Part shown: positions 5,063-10,913 of the stretch, in pieces | How the letters are laid out: the number at the start of each line of letters is the position of its first letter | How positions within the stretch are numbered: position 1 is the first letter of the stretch | From: Pseudooceanicola nanhaiensis DSM 18065 | Lineage (GTDB): Bacteria; Pseudomonadota; Alphaproteobacteria; Rhodobacterales; Rhodobacteraceae | NCBI RefSeq assembly: GCF_000688295.1 | Contig: NZ_JHZF01000011.1 | Location: forward strand, 1,396,288 to 1,460,287 | Reading direction: 5' to 3' | DNA: 64,000 nucleotides | Position numbers and translations under genes: made by a program | Notes under the pieces: model-generated | Told to the model about the DNA's origin: nothing | Databases searched by the model: none | The model's input: the letters and a program-made list of their open reading frames with translations, nothing else

Positions 5063-6262
5063 CTAGTCCAGCCGCGCGCGCCCCGGGCCGGACCCGCGCA
5101 GGGGGCCGAGCGCGTCGAAGCCCATCAGGCGACCGTGTTCCTGCAGCGCGAAGCGGTCGGTCATGCCGGAGATGTAATCGCAGACGATCCGGGCGAGCGC
5201 GGTCTCGTCGCCCGCGATGTCCTCCACGTCCTTGCGCCATTGCTTCGGCAGTTCCGCCGGGTGCGCCATGAAGAAGGGGAAGAGGTCGCGCACCACCTGG
5301 GTCACCTTCTCGCGCACCGCCACCACCTCGGGGGCGCGGTACATGCGGTGGAAGAGGAACTCGCGGATGATCTTCAGGTCCTTCCAGATGCCGGGCGAGA
5401 ACTGCACCATCATCCGGCCGGCGTGGCGCACATCCGTGACGCTTTTCGGATCGAGCGCTCGGAGATTGGCGCGGGAGACGTCGATCACGTCCGAGACCAG
5501 CACCCCGAAGAAGCGCCGGAGCGCCTCGTGCCGGCGGCGGTAATAGTTCAGGCCGGGATAGCGACGGTCGACCTCGGCGAAGCAGCGATCGAGGATCGGC
5601 AGCTCGGCCAGCTCGTCGGTCGAGAAGAGCTCGGCCCGGAGCCCGTCATGCAGGTCATGGTTGTTGTAGGCGATGTCGTCCGAGAGCGCGGCCACCTGCG
5701 CCTCGGCGGAGGCATGGGTGGAAAGCTCCAGATCGTGGCGCGCGTTGTATTCGGCCAGCGCATAGGGGACGGGCTCCGTCACCGGGCCGTTGTGCTTGGC
5801 GATGCCCTCGAGCGTTTCCCAGGTCAGGTTCAGCCCGTCCCATTCGGCGTAGTGACGCTCCAGACGGGTGACGATCCGGATCGCCTGCGCGTTGTGGTCG
5901 AACCCGCCGTAGGGCGCCATCAGCGCCTCGAGCGCGTCCTCGCCCGTATGACCGAAGGGCGGGTGGCCGAGGTCATGGGCCAGCGCCACGGCTTCGGTGA
6001 GTTCGAGGTCCAGCCCCAGGGCCCCCGCCACGGTCCGGGCCACCTGCCCCACCTCGATCGAATGGGTCAGCCGGGTGCGGTAGTAATCGCCCTCGTGTTC
6101 CACGAAGACCTGCGTCTTGTGCTTCAGCCGCCGGAAGGCGGAGGCGTGGATGATCCGGTCCCGGTCCCTCTGGAAGCAGGAGCGGAAGGTGCTTTCCTCT
6201 TCCGGCACCAGCCGTCCCCGCGCCTCTTCCGGCCGGCTTGCATAGGTCGCGCGCATCGTCAC
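5063..6262 (-). CDS. dgt: dGTPase-like HD-domain protein (type 2)
   Basis: This is a deoxyguanosinetriphosphate triphosphohydrolase-like enzyme that cleaves dNTPs to deoxynucleoside and tripolyphosphate, adjusting DNA precursor pools. The 399-residue protein carries the metal-binding HD motifs: H67 in RLTHSIEV, H96-D97 in [11 protein letters not shown], and a later [10 protein letters not shown] segment with the final Asp. The early block [26 protein letters not shown] is typical of the type 2 subfamily. The start could be either of two ATGs two codons apart (MTMRATY or MRATY). It is divergent from the iron-sulfur carrier gene, with about 100 bp between them, and is followed by argS. Confidence 0.93.
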
Positions 6263-6360
6263 ATCCCCGGGGGCTTCGCCGCCCCTCCTTGTCGCTCATT
6301 CGTGACGCTCTTATATTGCAGGTCCATGACATGCAAAGCGCCGCTTCAGGAGCCTGCCCG

Positions 6361-6684
6361 ATGAACCTGCCCCCCAACGTCACCCCGCGCGCCTTCGAAC
6401 GCCTGGCCGAGATCGGAGCGGGTGCGGATGGCAAGGCGCTCCGCGTGGCCGTCGAGGGCGGCGGCTGCTCGGGCTTCCAGTACGAGATCAAGCTCGACGA
6501 GGTGGCCGAGGACGATCTGGTGCTCGAGGGCGAGGGTCAGAAGGTGGTGGTGGACAGCGTCTCGCTGCCGTTCCTGGCCGGCGCGACCATCGACTTCACC
6601 GAGGAGCTGATCGGCGCGCGTTTCGTGATCGAGAACCCGAACGCCACCAGCTCCTGCGGTTGCGGCACCAGCTTTTCCATGTAG
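6361..6684 (+). CDS. erpA: A-type iron-sulfur cluster carrier (ErpA/IscA family)
   Basis: This 107-residue HesB-like protein binds a [2Fe-2S] or [4Fe-4S] cluster and passes it to apo-enzymes. The three invariant cysteines are present: C36 in GGGCSGF, and C99 and C101 in [10 protein letters not shown] start at the ATG giving [15 protein letters not shown]. The frame is open about 40 codons upstream, but that part overlaps the dgt promoter region and does not resemble the family. The GGGCSGFQY motif and [17 protein letters not shown] region favour ErpA-like proteins over IscA, but family members are hard to separate by sequence alone. It stands alone next to dgt, which is common in this order. 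Confidence 0.9.
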
Positions 6685-6726: not shown

Positions 6727-7641
6727 TCATTCCGCCGGGATGACCGCGGGCCGCGTGACCCGCCGGTCGGCCGCGATACGCTCGTAGACGAGATAGGTGC
6801 CCGAGGCGATGACGATGGCGACGCCGAGGTAGATGTGCCCGCCCGGCACCTCTCCGAAGAAGACCGCGCCCAGGATCACCATCCAGACGAACTGCAGGTT
6901 CATCAGCGGCGTCACCGCGTAGGCCGCGAGCTTCGAGAGCGCGATCACGAGGATCCAGCGGCCCGCGAAGAGCACGCCCGCATAGGCCACGGCCCAGCCG
7001 AAATCGGTGAGCGGCATCGCTTTCCAGACGAAGGGCAGCGCCAGCCCCATGACGAGCGCGAGCGAGAGGTTCGGGTAGAAGACCTGCGCCAGCGTGTTCG
7101 CCTCGTGCCGCCCGATGTAGCGCGACACCACCATCGACAGCGTGCCCGTGGCGCTGGCCGCGAAGGCGATCGCGTGGCCGGTGCCGATCCCGTGCAGCCC
7201 TTCGGGGAAGAGGCACAGCACGCCGACGAAGCCCGCGCCGAGCGCGAACCAGGCCGGCGCGCGCACGTGTTCGCCGAGGATCGGGCCGGAGAGCAGGCCC
7301 GCGAGCAGCGGCACGAGGCCGATGAAGACGAAGACCTCCGCGAAGGGCAGAAGGCGGAAGGCGTAGAAATAGCAGGTGACCGAGACGACGGTCGCCACGG
7401 ACCGGACGGCCATCGCCCGCGGACAGCTGGTGCGGAGCCCCTGCCGGGGCCCGGATTTCACCCGGTCGGCGGTCAGCGCCATGCCGACGACGAGCAGGCC
7501 CGAGACGAAATAGAGCTGCGGCGCGGCGTATCCGCCGGCCAGCAGCTTGGTGATCGCATCCGCGGAAGAGATCAGCAGCGTGTAGACGAGCACCAGCAGG
7601 GTCCCGGTCAGCGCGGCGCTTCGGATCACGGCGGCCCTCAT
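6727..7641 (-). CDS. EamA/DMT-family membrane transporter
   Basis: This 304-residue, strongly hydrophobic protein has about ten membrane segments in two homologous EamA halves, the organisation of drug/metabolite exporters of the DMT superfamily. Features include an N-terminal helix with LVYTLLISSADAITK and a second-half start FAASATGTLSMVVSRYIG. The start ATG overlaps the stop of the upstream 360-residue gene (ATGA), so the two are translationally coupled. The first gene of the same transcript encodes the FSSGS-repeat peptide. The substrate is unknown. From context it may export a product made by this operon, but DMT proteins have very diverse substrates. Confidence 0.85.
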   Translation of the reverse strand: MRAAVIRSAALTGTLLVLVYTLLISSADAITKLLAGGYAAPQLYFVSGLLVVGMALTADRVKSGPRQGLRTSCPRAMAVRSVATVVSVTCYFYAFRLLPFAEVFVFIGLVPLLAGLLSGPILGEHVRAPAWFALGAGFVGVLCLFPEGLHGIGTGHAIAFAASATGTLSMVVSRYIGRHEANTLAQVFYPNLSLALVMGLALPFVWKAMPLTDFGWAVAYAGVLFAGRWILVIALSKLAAYAVTPLMNLQFVWMVILGAVFFGEVPGGHIYLGVAIVIASGTYLVYERIAADRRVTRPAVIPAE

Positions 7642-8720
7642 GCCGGCATCCTCAGCGGCATCGCCTGCCCGGCCCGGGCGAAGCCCGCGAAGAAGCCGTC
7701 GAAATCCGGGCAGGCCGCCTCGGCCTCCTGAAGGACGTCGCGCGCCTCCGCGTCGAGCGCATGTTCGACGGTGCCGCGCATGACGTGCCAGTCGCCCGAG
7801 CGCGCGTCGTCGAGATCGAGCATCAGCTGCGACATCTGGCGCAGCGGCGTGGCGCCGGGCCGGGCGGAATGGAAGCTCATGGGGCCGAAGGGCAGCGGCG
7901 CGGCGAAGCTCTCGGCTCCGGCAAGGGCGCGGGACCAGTTGCAGACGAGGAATTCGTGATAATCGTCGCGGGCGGGCGCCGCGCGGTCGCCTTCCGCGGT
8001 GACGAAACCCGCGGTGTGCCCGGACAGCCATTCGTCCCAGATCATCGGCACGGGGCATGCGGCGAAGCGCAGGGCCACGCAGATCTCGGCCAGCAGGTCG
8101 GCGTTGCGGTCGAGGTAGGCGAGCGTGCCGCCATAGGCCAGGCTGCGCGCGATCTCGGGCCCGAAATCGAAGGGCTGGCGGCCGTATTCGGTCAGGTAGA
8201 AGATCGTGTGGGTCAGCTCGTAGGCGGCCTTCTTGTTCGGCATCGCGAAGGTGGCGGGGCGGGCGATGAAGTGCAGCAGCCGGTCGGTCAGACCCGGGTC
8301 GGCCAGATCGCAGCCGCGGCGGCACATCAGGCGGCGGGCCTCGGCGCGCTGGAGGTCGGAGATCTCGGCCTCGGCCAGGCCCTGCTGCGACGCCCAGTGG
8401 ACGAGCGCCTCTCCCTTGTCGCCAGGCATTCCGAGGTCCTCGAGATCGAGCGTCATCGAGAGCAGGAAGCGGTAGTATTGCGGGAAGAAGGCGAGGCGTT
8501 TCTCGACCTTGTCGTAGAAGGCGGCATAGGCCGCGAGGGCCCGGTCGTCGGGCCCGGCGCCGGTGCTCTCGAAGATGTTCAGCAGCTCGGCGTTTTCCTT
8601 CAGCCAGAAGACATCGTCCTGGCTGCGGCGGTCGGCGGCGAAGCTCGCCGTCAGAGCGGCCAGGCGGTCGGCCCGGCCCCGGGCGCGGGAGGGGAAGGTC
8701 AGGTGAACAACGTTGGTCAT
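7638..8720 (-). CDS. Conserved helical protein of unknown function, partner of the FSSGS-repeat peptide
   Basis: This 360-residue soluble protein is mostly alpha-helical by composition, with no signal peptide or membrane segment. Striking blocks are C133-x3-C137 (LMCRRGCD), ELTHTIFYLTEYGR at 168-181, and DDYHEFLVCNW at 252-262. Further cysteines lie near 214, 222 and 260, and His, Asp and Trp residues are concentrated in these blocks. The LTHxIFYLTxxG pattern resembles helical toroid-type proteins of unknown function, which is a weak impression. It sits 63 bp after the repeat-peptide gene and overlaps the exporter gene by 4 bp. A role in modifying, binding or maturing the peptide is inference from operon order only. 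Confidence 0.75.
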   Translation of the reverse strand: MTNVVHLTFPSRARGRADRLAALTASFAADRRSQDDVFWLKENAELLNIFESTGAGPDDRALAAYAAFYDKVEKRLAFFPQYYRFLLSMTLDLEDLGMPGDKGEALVHWASQQGLAEAEISDLQRAEARRLMCRRGCDLADPGLTDRLLHFIARPATFAMPNKKAAYELTHTIFYLTEYGRQPFDFGPEIARSLAYGGTLAYLDRNADLLAEICVALRFAACPVPMIWDEWLSGHTAGFVTAEGDRAAPARDDYHEFLVCNWSRALAGAESFAAPLPFGPMSFHSARPGATPLRQMSQLMLDLDDARSGDWHVMRGTVEHALDAEARDVLQEAEAACPDFDGFFAGFARAGQAMPLRMPA

Positions 8721-8783
8721 CTCGGGTTTCTCCTTGAATACCGGGCGCTTGCCTGACCGCCCATCTCCGCACCTGGGATCGGC

Positions 8784-9191
8784 TTACGAGCCCGACGAGA
8801 ACATGTGGGTCGCGTCGCCCTCGATCTGCTCGCTCTTCGCCGGAGCGGAGCCCGAGGAGAACATCTCGACCGCATCGCCTGCGATGGAGGCGGTGGCCGT
8901 CGGGGCGCTGCCCGAGGAGAACATCTCGACCGCGTCACCTGCGATGGAGGCGGTGGCCCTCGGGGCGCTGCCCGAGGAGAACATCTCGACCGCATCACCC
9001 ACCAGGGAGGCCGAGGCGGCGGGGGCCGAGCCGGAGGAGAAGAGGCCGGTCACGTCGCCGGTCAGCAGCTCGCCCGATGCAACCGGGGCGGAGCCCGAGG
9101 AGAACATCTCGACCGCGTCGCCGTCGAGCAGGCTGGCCTCGGCCTTGGCGCGGTTTTCGGGGGTGAAGCGGGCTTTGCGAAGAGCAGTCAT
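8784..9191 (-). CDS. Short repeat peptide with six FSSGS modules
   Basis: The gene encodes 135 residues: a basic N-terminal leader of about 22 residues (MTALRKARFTPENRAKAEAS), then six near-identical modules of about 20 residues. Each has the core GDAVEMFSSGSAP. The Phe residues fall at 30, 51, 71, 91, 111 and 131, and the protein ends abruptly at FSSGS in the sixth module. There are no cysteines, signal peptide or membrane segments. The start is fixed by an AAGGA ribosome site upstream of the ATG at 9191; the longer frame to 9374 has no such support. It leads an operon with an unknown helical protein and an EamA exporter. The leader-plus-iterated-core layout is like multi-core modified-peptide precursors, but a structural or binding repeat is equally possible. 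Confidence 0.8.
   Translation of the reverse strand: MTALRKARFTPENRAKAEASLLDGDAVEMFSSGSAPVASGELLTGDVTGLFSSGSAPAASASLVGDAVEMFSSGSAPRATASIAGDAVEMFSSGSAPTATASIAGDAVEMFSSGSAPAKSEQIEGDATHMFSSGS
8787..9125 (-). repeat. Tandem coding repeat, period 60-63 bp, six units
   Basis: The six FSSGS modules are also repeated at DNA level. The first spacing is 63 bp and the next four are 60 bp. The invariant block (forward strand gaggagaacatctcgacc) recurs nearly unchanged, so the array probably grew by recent duplication and may vary in copy number. Confidence 0.9.
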
Positions 9192-9546
9192 TTCCGTGTC
9201 CTTCCAGGTTGCGTTGATGCCAAAACGCTGGCACGGAGCCCGCGGGCCACAAACGGGAATTATCGGTCGACCCTCCGGTTGATTTCGAAACGCCCGTGGC
9301 TCACGATGGGTAAACCACTGGAACTGCGGGGCTTTTCCGGTGTCCAAAAAATGTGTTAACGCGCTTGAAAACAACTCTTGCGCGAAGGATTTCTGACGCC
9401 ATAGCGATACGTCCCTCTCGCCCGCCTGACGCGGACCCGTGACTCGTGGCGAAAGATCGGGGTGCGGAAGCGCGTCAGGACGATTCTCCGGCTGCCCTTG
9501 TCTGTGCCGACGGATTCGGGGATGAGTCGGGGATCAGGAGGCGCCC
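9192..9546. other. Divergent intergenic region between the FSSGS-repeat operon and xthA
   Basis: This is about 355 bp without a credible gene. It should hold promoters for both the minus-strand repeat operon and plus-strand xthA. An AAGGA ribosome site lies just before the ATG at 9191. I see no convincing -35/-10 pair, operator palindrome or riboswitch-like fold. Confidence 0.6.
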
Positions 9547-10329
9547 ATGAAGATCGCGACATTCAACATCAACGGCATCAAGGCCCGGATCGAGGCTCTT
9601 CCGGCGTGGCTGGAAGAGGCGGAGCCCGATGTCGTGGTGCTGCAGGAGATCAAGTCGGTGGACGAGAATTTCCCGCGCGAGGTCTTCGAGGACCTGGGCT
9701 GGATCGTCGAGACGCATGGCCAGAAGAGCTTCAACGGGGTGGCGATCCTGTCGAAACTGCCGCTCGAGGACGTGACCCGCGGCCTGCCCGGCGACGACGA
9801 GGACGAACAGGCCCGCTGGATCGAGGCCACGGTCATGGGCGAACGGACGGCGGTGCGGGTCTGCGGGCTCTACCTGCCGAACGGGAACCCCGCGCCGGGC
9901 CCCAAATACGATTACAAGCTCGCGTGGATGGAGCGGCTCAGGGCGCGGGCCGAGGCGCTGCTGAAAGCCGAGGAACCGGCGCTGATGGCCGGGGATTACA
10001 ACGTCATCCCGCAGGCCGAGGACGCGGCGAAGCCCGAGGCCTGGGTCGAGGACGCGCTGTTCCTGCCGCAGACGCGCGAGGCGTTCCGCCGGATCCTGAA
10101 CCTCGGTTACACCGACGCCTTCCGCGTGCGGGTGCAGGGGCCGGGGCATTATTCCTTCTGGGATTACCAGCGCAATTCCTGGGAACGGAACAACGGCATC
10201 CGCATCGACCATTTCCTGCTGACGCCGCAATGCGCCGACCTGCTGGTCGAGTGCGGCATCGACAAGGAGGTGCGTGGCCGCGACAAGCCCTCGGACCACG
10301 TGCCGGTCTGGGTGGAGCTCGACGCGTGA
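9547..10329 (+). CDS. xthA: Exodeoxyribonuclease III
   Basis: This AP endonuclease / 3'-5' exonuclease takes part in base-excision repair. The 260-residue protein shows the endonuclease/exonuclease/phosphatase fold motifs in order: FNINGIKAR (metal-site Asn), LQEIKS (catalytic Glu at about residue 34), GDYNVIP (Asp/Asn pair), and the C-terminal SDHVPV with catalytic Asp-His. Trp-containing WDYQRNSWERNNGIRIDHFL is also characteristic. Length matches the family. Its stop overlaps the GTG start of the following nucleotidyltransferase gene, so the two are translated from one message. Confidence 0.96.
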   Translation: MKIATFNINGIKARIEALPAWLEEAEPDVVVLQEIKSVDENFPREVFEDLGWIVETHGQKSFNGVAILSKLPLEDVTRGLPGDDEDEQARWIEATVMGERTAVRVCGLYLPNGNPAPGPKYDYKLAWMERLRARAEALLKAEEPALMAGDYNVIPQAEDAAKPEAWVEDALFLPQTREAFRRILNLGYTDAFRVRVQGPGHYSFWDYQRNSWERNNGIRIDHFLLTPQCADLLVECGIDKEVRGRDKPSDHVPVWVELDA

Positions 10330-10913
10330 GCCTGGCGATCCTGATCCTCGGTGCGGGCGCCGCGTCGCGGATGCGCGGCGGCGACAAGCTCCTGGAAGAG
10401 GTCGGCGGCCAGCCGCTGCTGGCGCTTCAGGCCGCGCGGGCGCTGCGGACCGGGCAGCCGGTCGTGGTCACCCTGCCCCCCTTCCCCCATCCCCGCGGCT
10501 CGGTCCTGAAGGACATGCCGGTCGCCCGCGTCCAGGTGCGCGACGCCGCAGAGGGCATGGCCGCCTCGATCCGGGCGGGCGTCGCCGCGCTGGCTGCCGG
10601 CACCCGGGGCGTGATGATCCTGCCGGGCGACATGCCCGAGATCGACGGCGCCGACATCTCCGCGATGATCGCCCACTGGGAGCCGGGCGAGATCCTGCGC
10701 GGCGCGGCGGAGGATGGCACGCCCGGCCATCCGGTGATCTTCCCCGCCGATCTGTTCGAAGAGCTCTCGGGCCTTTCCGGCGATACCGGCGCGCGCGAGG
10801 TGCTGGTGCGCCATCGCGCGCGGATCCGGCTCTTTCCCCTGCCCGGCCGGCACGCGCTGACCGACCTCGACAGCCCCGAGGAATGGGCGGCCTGGCGCGA
10901 AGGGGCCGAGTGA
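10326..10913 (+). CDS. MobA-like molybdenum-cofactor-type nucleotidyltransferase
   Basis: This 195-residue Rossmann-like NTP transferase has the glycine-rich N-terminal signature LILGAGAASRMRGGDKL and the metal-binding GDMPEID motif in the middle. Related proteins (MocA/MobA type) attach CMP or GMP to molybdopterin. The acidic PGDMPEI and the late GHPVIFP segment resemble molybdenum cofactor cytidylyltransferases. A GTG start at 10326 overlaps the xthA stop; the long open frame upstream belongs to another gene's shadow. Which nucleotide it uses and whether it serves xanthine-dehydrogenase-type enzymes cannot be told from this window. Confidence 0.85.
   Translation: MSLAILILGAGAASRMRGGDKLLEEVGGQPLLALQAARALRTGQPVVVTLPPFPHPRGSVLKDMPVARVQVRDAAEGMAASIRAGVAALAAGTRGVMILPGDMPEIDGADISAMIAHWEPGEILRGAAEDGTPGHPVIFPADLFEELSGLSGDTGAREVLVRHRARIRLFPLPGRHALTDLDSPEEWAAWREGAE

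Follow-up and report, generated by a model that had tools for sequence, protein, structure and literature searches.

Precursors that carry many copies of one short peptide are familiar from the repeat precursor of the yeast alpha-factor. Several described systems resemble parts of the locus considered here, a cassette in which a gene for a repeat peptide precedes a gene of the Pfam family DUF6902, located in a 64 000-nucleotide stretch of Pseudooceanicola nanhaiensis DSM 18065 (contig NZ_JHZF01000011.1, positions 1 396 288 to 1 460 287; hereafter ‘the window’, with positions counted from its first letter). Fungal precursors cut by Kex2, as described in excerpts of PMC7329392, likewise hold many peptide copies, but are processed in the secretory pathway, whereas the peptide of the window displays no signal sequence by eye. 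Multi-core graspetides of the microviridin type also combine several cores on one precursor with one enzyme; according to excerpts of PMC5934393 and PMC8939145, however, they use ATP-grasp ligases, and no such ligase was found among the nine window proteins scanned (3.1–11.2 kb). The acid/base epimerization that we propose for DUF6902 is described, in part of PMC10406935, for MslH, the epimerase of the lasso peptide MS-271, which works with two His/Asp pairs and Ca(II). MslH differs in its calcineurin-like fold, its use of Ca(II) and its C-terminal Trp target: DUF6902 is predicted to be all-alpha, and its helical model does not display an MslH-type fold. Finally, a lasso peptide epimerase is reported in the DUF6895 family by the title of Shi et al. 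(2026, ACS Catal), as cited in the reference list of PMC13352647. The DUF6902 protein shares with DUF6895 a distant homology over the central helices, a common Y/H/D/E/H residue set, a similar predicted fold and, in 4 of 10 loci, an upstream peptide. Unlike that system, the cassette has tandem F-x-S/T-x-x cores and a Pfam family of its own, and neither a lasso cyclase (asparagine-synthetase-like) nor a leader peptidase was seen among the same nine proteins, a search that did not extend to the rest of the genome.

The pattern of the cassette is that of a ribosomally synthesized and post-translationally modified peptide (RiPP), as leader and cores are encoded in one gene and a dedicated partner gene is linked to it. 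This precursor–partner cassette is real, widespread and apparently undescribed. In the window, three genes lie on the minus strand: the multi-core precursor peptide (8784..9191, stop included; 135 residues), the DUF6902 protein, a candidate peptide-modifying enzyme (7638..8720; 360 residues), and an EamA/drug–metabolite transporter (6727..7641; 304 residues). The DUF6902 gene starts 63 bp past the stop codon of the peptide, and the EamA gene overlaps it by 4 bp. This layout agrees with the coordinates given in an earlier note made from the letters of the window, which had also read the peptide, correctly, as a basic leader followed by six near-identical modules.

The leader, residues 1–23 (MTALRK...LLD; MTALRKARFTPENRAKAEASLLD, 9123..9191, minus strand), is basic, without a hydrophobic signal by eye, and many homologous peptides have similar M(T/S/N)A-x-(R/K)K-like starts, also read by eye. 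The modules, all on the minus strand, comprise five full ones (21, 20, 20, 20 and 20 residues) and a last one of 11 residues ending in FSSGS and the stop. Module 1 (GDAVEMFSSGSAP plus spacer) occupies 9060..9122, and the deviant module 2 (GDVTGLFSSGSAP plus spacer, GDVTGLFSSGS) 9000..9059; modules 3 (8940..8999), 4 (8880..8939) and 5 (8820..8879) come next, Tandem Repeats Finder reporting a period of 60 with 4.8 copies at 8840–9131; module 6 (GDATHMFSSGS then stop, 8784..8819) closes the protein with its last core residue. Neither Pfam nor NCBIfam yielded a match for the peptide at E ≤ 1. Among 5.8 billion proteins searched, 14 relatives were recovered, none with a Pfam domain or any name other than ‘hypothetical protein’.

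To what extent the two genes belong together was assessed in the Rhodobacteraceae, where DUF6902 is present in 82 of 295 genomes, a sample with roughly one member from each genus. The 199 DUF6902 hits were reduced to 151 distinct loci by merging identical first 230 residues; two fragments (L109 and L110) and one short hit (L045) stand outside this set, and the peptides of 80 named loci (L131–L210) were assessed through counts alone, the others partly by eye. A repeat lies upstream of DUF6902 in 148 of the 151 loci, two being without it (L078 and L114) and one masked by Ns (L076). An identical 4-mer was detected at least three times in the upstream open reading frame of 142 of the 151 loci, against 25 of 442 control sites taken from these loci, and at least five times in 122 loci against four control sites; two-copy repeats were recognized by eye in six loci (L083, L115, L118, L120, L127 and L130). 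The number of exact core copies per gene ranges from 2 to 20 (median 7, 142 genes), and in 104 of 142 cases 50–75 bp separate the stop of the peptide gene from the start of the enzyme gene. Moreover, in a set of 40 relatives, searches for the peptide and for DUF6902 pick out an identical group of 21 genomes and find nothing in the other 19. The earlier note had set beforehand, as a test, that the 360-residue protein should co-occur with repeats differing in copy number; this is observed, and the architecture proposed in that note, a leader with an iterated core and a dedicated partner, is supported by both the linkage and the matching presence in relatives. One locus, L118, contains two repeat-peptide genes, about 125 and 500 bp 5′ of DUF6902, with different cores (LFGSSC and FTSGS).

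FSSGS, after which the earlier note had named the repeats, proved to be only one version of the core, with 44 core labels distinguished across 142 genes: FSSGS in 33, FTSGS in 24, FTSWS and FTSGL in 11 each, FASGS in six, and 39 more, including rarer cores such as MMSCS and LSPSC. One of these labels, RRACS (L081), reflects a wrong frame, and FVSTG, FSWSE, VEAIM and SSTCL reflect other registers. Within a gene, the copies agree: units picked on the sole basis of the flank G-[DEAG]-x4-F contain the majority pentamer of their own gene in 938 of 950 cases, and a single pentamer is found in 125 of 134 genes, the other nine including some mixed genes (L157, L097) and some stray matches. With a looser count, a single pentamer is retrieved in 66 of 138 genes, and the identity of the four residues after F is 0.80 within versus 0.44 between genes. 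Synonymous sites of the core have diverged far between copies of one gene (proportion of synonymous differences, pS, 0.52), so that recent duplication alone does not account for the agreement of the copies, which selection maintains. The corresponding ratio of non-synonymous to synonymous differences (pN/pS) is 0.07 for the core, a figure flattered by the choice of units, 0.41 for the flank and 0.77 for the spacer. On the enzyme tree (140 rows), 42 labels require at least 58 changes, against a mean of 99.1 after shuffling: the core follows lineages, yet switches often, mostly in all copies together. Lastly, in 102 of 142 peptides the final core residue is also the final residue of the protein, suggesting a product that ends there; proteins of the S-W-S types extend a few residues further.

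The 360-residue protein was assigned to DUF6902 (PF21843) with 500.5 bits (cut-off 27, E = 2.9e-150), and it also exceeds the cut-off of DUF6895 (PF21836) with 83 bits against 23.8 (E = 3.1e-23); no other Pfam match and no NCBIfam match was obtained. According to hhalign, the two family alignments are related with a probability of 96.9% (147 columns). When 71 proteins were aligned jointly, the columns of Y167, H171, Y175, D208, E212 and H255 were invariant, and 22 DUF6895 rows have the corresponding Y, H, D, E and H. From these sequence comparisons, DUF6902 is a distant relative of DUF6895. Accordingly, the statement of the earlier note that no known maturase was matched has to be corrected, since a functional lead exists through DUF6895. 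The AlphaFold2 model of the protein is almost wholly helical (predicted local distance difference test, pLDDT, 94.7; predicted template modelling score, pTM, 0.92), as is that of DUF6895 (pLDDT 90.0, pTM 0.90). Both models resemble alpha/alpha toroids. As the toroid matches mix sugar 2-epimerases with hydrolases, cyclases and ligand binders (transcobalamin, C3-type domains), the fold alone does not tell the function; for DUF6902, Foldseek gave no match at E ≤ 1e-3, and when the joint profile was compared with the sequences of solved structures, the best E was 0.033.

Across 147 DUF6902 proteins, 29 positions are constant, including H171, Y175, D208, E212 and H255. The two loci without a repeat in readable upstream DNA, L078 and L114, are the only ones of the 151 to lack H171, Y175 and D208, linking the conserved residues to the peptide. 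The protein of L078 (47% identity to that of the window) retains E212 and H255 and has lost 7 of the 29 constant positions, and that of L114 (25% identity) has lost 17; L130, with its two-copy peptide, has F at position 167. This joint loss of residues and peptide is suggestive of a tie between them, although two events are not a proof.

Repeat peptides extend beyond this set of loci. A gammaproteobacterial DUF6902 protein (L225, E = 2.3e-102) is preceded by a 73-residue peptide with three G-x-G-[TS]-E-L-x-G-C-Y-T repeats, and for a further DUF6902-like protein (L226) the available sequence ends before the expected peptide position. The four short upstream peptides found in the 10 DUF6895 loci examined (L111, L112, L113 and L224) have an A-G-I-like leader part and W/F/Y-rich cores, those of L112 and L113 being composed of two modules. 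Five of the six pairs among them outscore all of 500 shuffles; for the remaining pair, L111–L113, 69 of 500 shuffles score as high. No such peptide was seen next to the six other DUF6895 hits, of 35–52 bits (L227–L232). These hits sit in other gene contexts and may represent another branch of the superfamily.

The transporter proved less constant than the two other genes. EamA directly follows DUF6902 on the same strand in 117 of the 151 loci and was not found there in 34, including the named Marivita loci and many divergent ones; as it was sought by tblastn with the EamA of the window, divergent versions may be missed, and at least four loci end at this point. An erpA-like gene comes next in 16 of the 24 EamA-less loci listed. 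The exporter, which the earlier note had made part of the pathway, was therefore rejected as a defining part of the unit: EamA is an accessory of the cassette, outside its minimal form. As for the neighbourhood, for which gene names beyond those of Pfam (xthA, erpA, argS, etc.) are presumptive assignments of our own, a divergent exonuclease gene (xthA-like, 9547–10329), a MobA-like gene (10298–10816, by Pfam scan) and a small multidrug resistance-type gene lie upstream; an erpA/IscA-like gene, a dGTPase-like HD protein gene and argS lie downstream. The cassette occupies a fixed slot (bounded in the window by genes at 6358–6684, 5063–6262 and 9547–10329), with an xthA-like gene in 142 and an erpA-like gene in 133 of the 151 loci; of 28 family loci lacking the cassette, 21 have the erpA-like gene no more than 1.5 kb from xthA.

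Taken together, we consider it about an even call that the cassette is a two-gene, RiPP-like system in which a multi-core precursor is served by a backbone-acting enzyme, most likely an epimerase. The short basic leader would recruit the DUF6902 enzyme, which would work iteratively along the repeats; its conserved Tyr, His, Asp/Glu and His could remove and return the alpha proton in each FSSGS core, an acid/base epimerization yielding a D-amino acid at one or more core residues. Host proteases encoded outside the locus might then free many copies of one short peptide, whose export may be aided by EamA in the lineages having it. Epimerization is favoured because DUF6902 is related to DUF6895, in which an epimerase has been reported, because its residue set looks suited to acid/base chemistry, and because the core side chains of the two families are unrelated. 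Given identical copies within a gene and a core that differs from lineage to lineage, each lineage most likely makes a single defined small peptide of its own. This could serve, for example, as a signal, a role that we infer from the pattern of variation only.

Other explanations have to be weighed against this one. The same pair could perform a different modification, such as a side-chain change at the near-constant Ser/Thr/Cys of core position 3, the formation of a bond, or cleavage by DUF6902. We regard this as possible but rather unlikely, since DUF6895-associated peptides do without that Ser/Thr position although the conserved residues are the same, since epimerase is the only functional label found in the superfamily, and since no family other than DUF6902 and DUF6895 is matched. 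Alternatively, DUF6902 might have no catalytic activity and serve the repeat peptide as a binding protein, chaperone or immunity partner, a role that would suit all-helical toroids, which often bind ligands, and to which the tight co-occurrence is as well adapted as to an enzyme. The many constant positions, the loss of H171, Y175 and D208 exactly where the peptide is lost, and the same residue set in DUF6895 despite different peptides make this improbable. It is more improbable still that the uncut repeat protein is the active form, with a structural, scaffold or surface function, and that DUF6902 aids its folding or assembly. Long homogeneous repeats of up to 20 exact copies speak for such a protein, but copy number varies widely, short two-copy peptides exist, spacers are nearly free to change while the five-residue core is held, and no signal sequence is apparent by eye.

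Hardly credible, in our view, is a locus that is mainly a DNA element, with arrays of DnaA boxes binding the replication initiator and the genes as passengers. The idea stems from the region between the peptide gene and xthA (9192..9546 in the window, intergenic and without strand). The box TTATCCACA, so named in PMC6699656, was sought with at most one mismatch in the 400 bp next to xthA: 98 of 142 cassette loci contain it, as against 1 of 28 family loci that lack the cassette, and dinucleotide shuffling of the 142 left it in 9.1 on average and in 14 at most. For those 28 control loci, DUF6902 was sought by PF21843 or by the protein in part of the genomes, and only by PF21836 in the rest; by tblastn, no DUF6902 was detected in 29 fetched xthA control loci. 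Of 274 boxes across 1229 kb of loci, 204 fall in the xthA-side region, with one to four boxes per locus (e.g. L084, L048, L025) and preferred spacings of 76, 53 and 22 bp. Against a DNA element, 44 of the 142 cassette loci display no box at this threshold (the window and 43 others, including the two peptide-less loci), and selection holds the protein core. The boxes rather suggest control of the cassette by DnaA in many lineages, the window excepted, though other proteins could bind the motif. A nearby replication origin (oriC) as their cause is unsupported: Rhodobacteraceae oriC is placed partly by nearness to parAB (PMC6699656, in part), and in two genomes of one contig each that have the cassette along with boxes, the distance to the best parB is at least 1.6 Mb (cassette at 130 kb versus parB at 2.58 Mb in G121; 4.21 versus 2.57 Mb in G568). 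In related loci, a second shared motif also lies upstream of the peptide gene, TGCAAGCGT in 33 and GATGTTGAA in 29 of 135 regions.

Returning to the multi-core precursor with an epimerase, DUF6902 is named in no paper of the open-access literature searched, and DUF6895 appears there in a single reference list. Judged by title and beginning of abstract, none of the matches listed there for FSSGS, FASGS or FTSGS, for RiPPs of the Rhodobacteraceae or for multicore RiPP epimerases deals with this system. The family is nevertheless common, and the peptide is not represented by a model in Pfam or NCBIfam. A bolder and rather doubtful extension would be a large, undescribed class of bacterial peptide signals. 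In it, all copies of a lineage-specific, pentapeptide-like core would be epimerized by a toroid enzyme, so that a single short gene provides many copies of the same D-residue peptide; the core would switch as a unit from lineage to lineage, like mating-type or quorum peptides, and in most lineages expression would be tied to DnaA and thereby to the replication cycle. In any case, the cassette looks like an undescribed route, in marine roseobacter-type bacteria, to modified small peptides whose sequence depends on the lineage. If confirmed, it would provide a two-gene, perhaps cofactor-free path to peptides with D-residues, a natural library of approximately 40 cores on which the specificity of the enzyme could be studied, and, for marine bacteria, a candidate chemical signal particular to each lineage.
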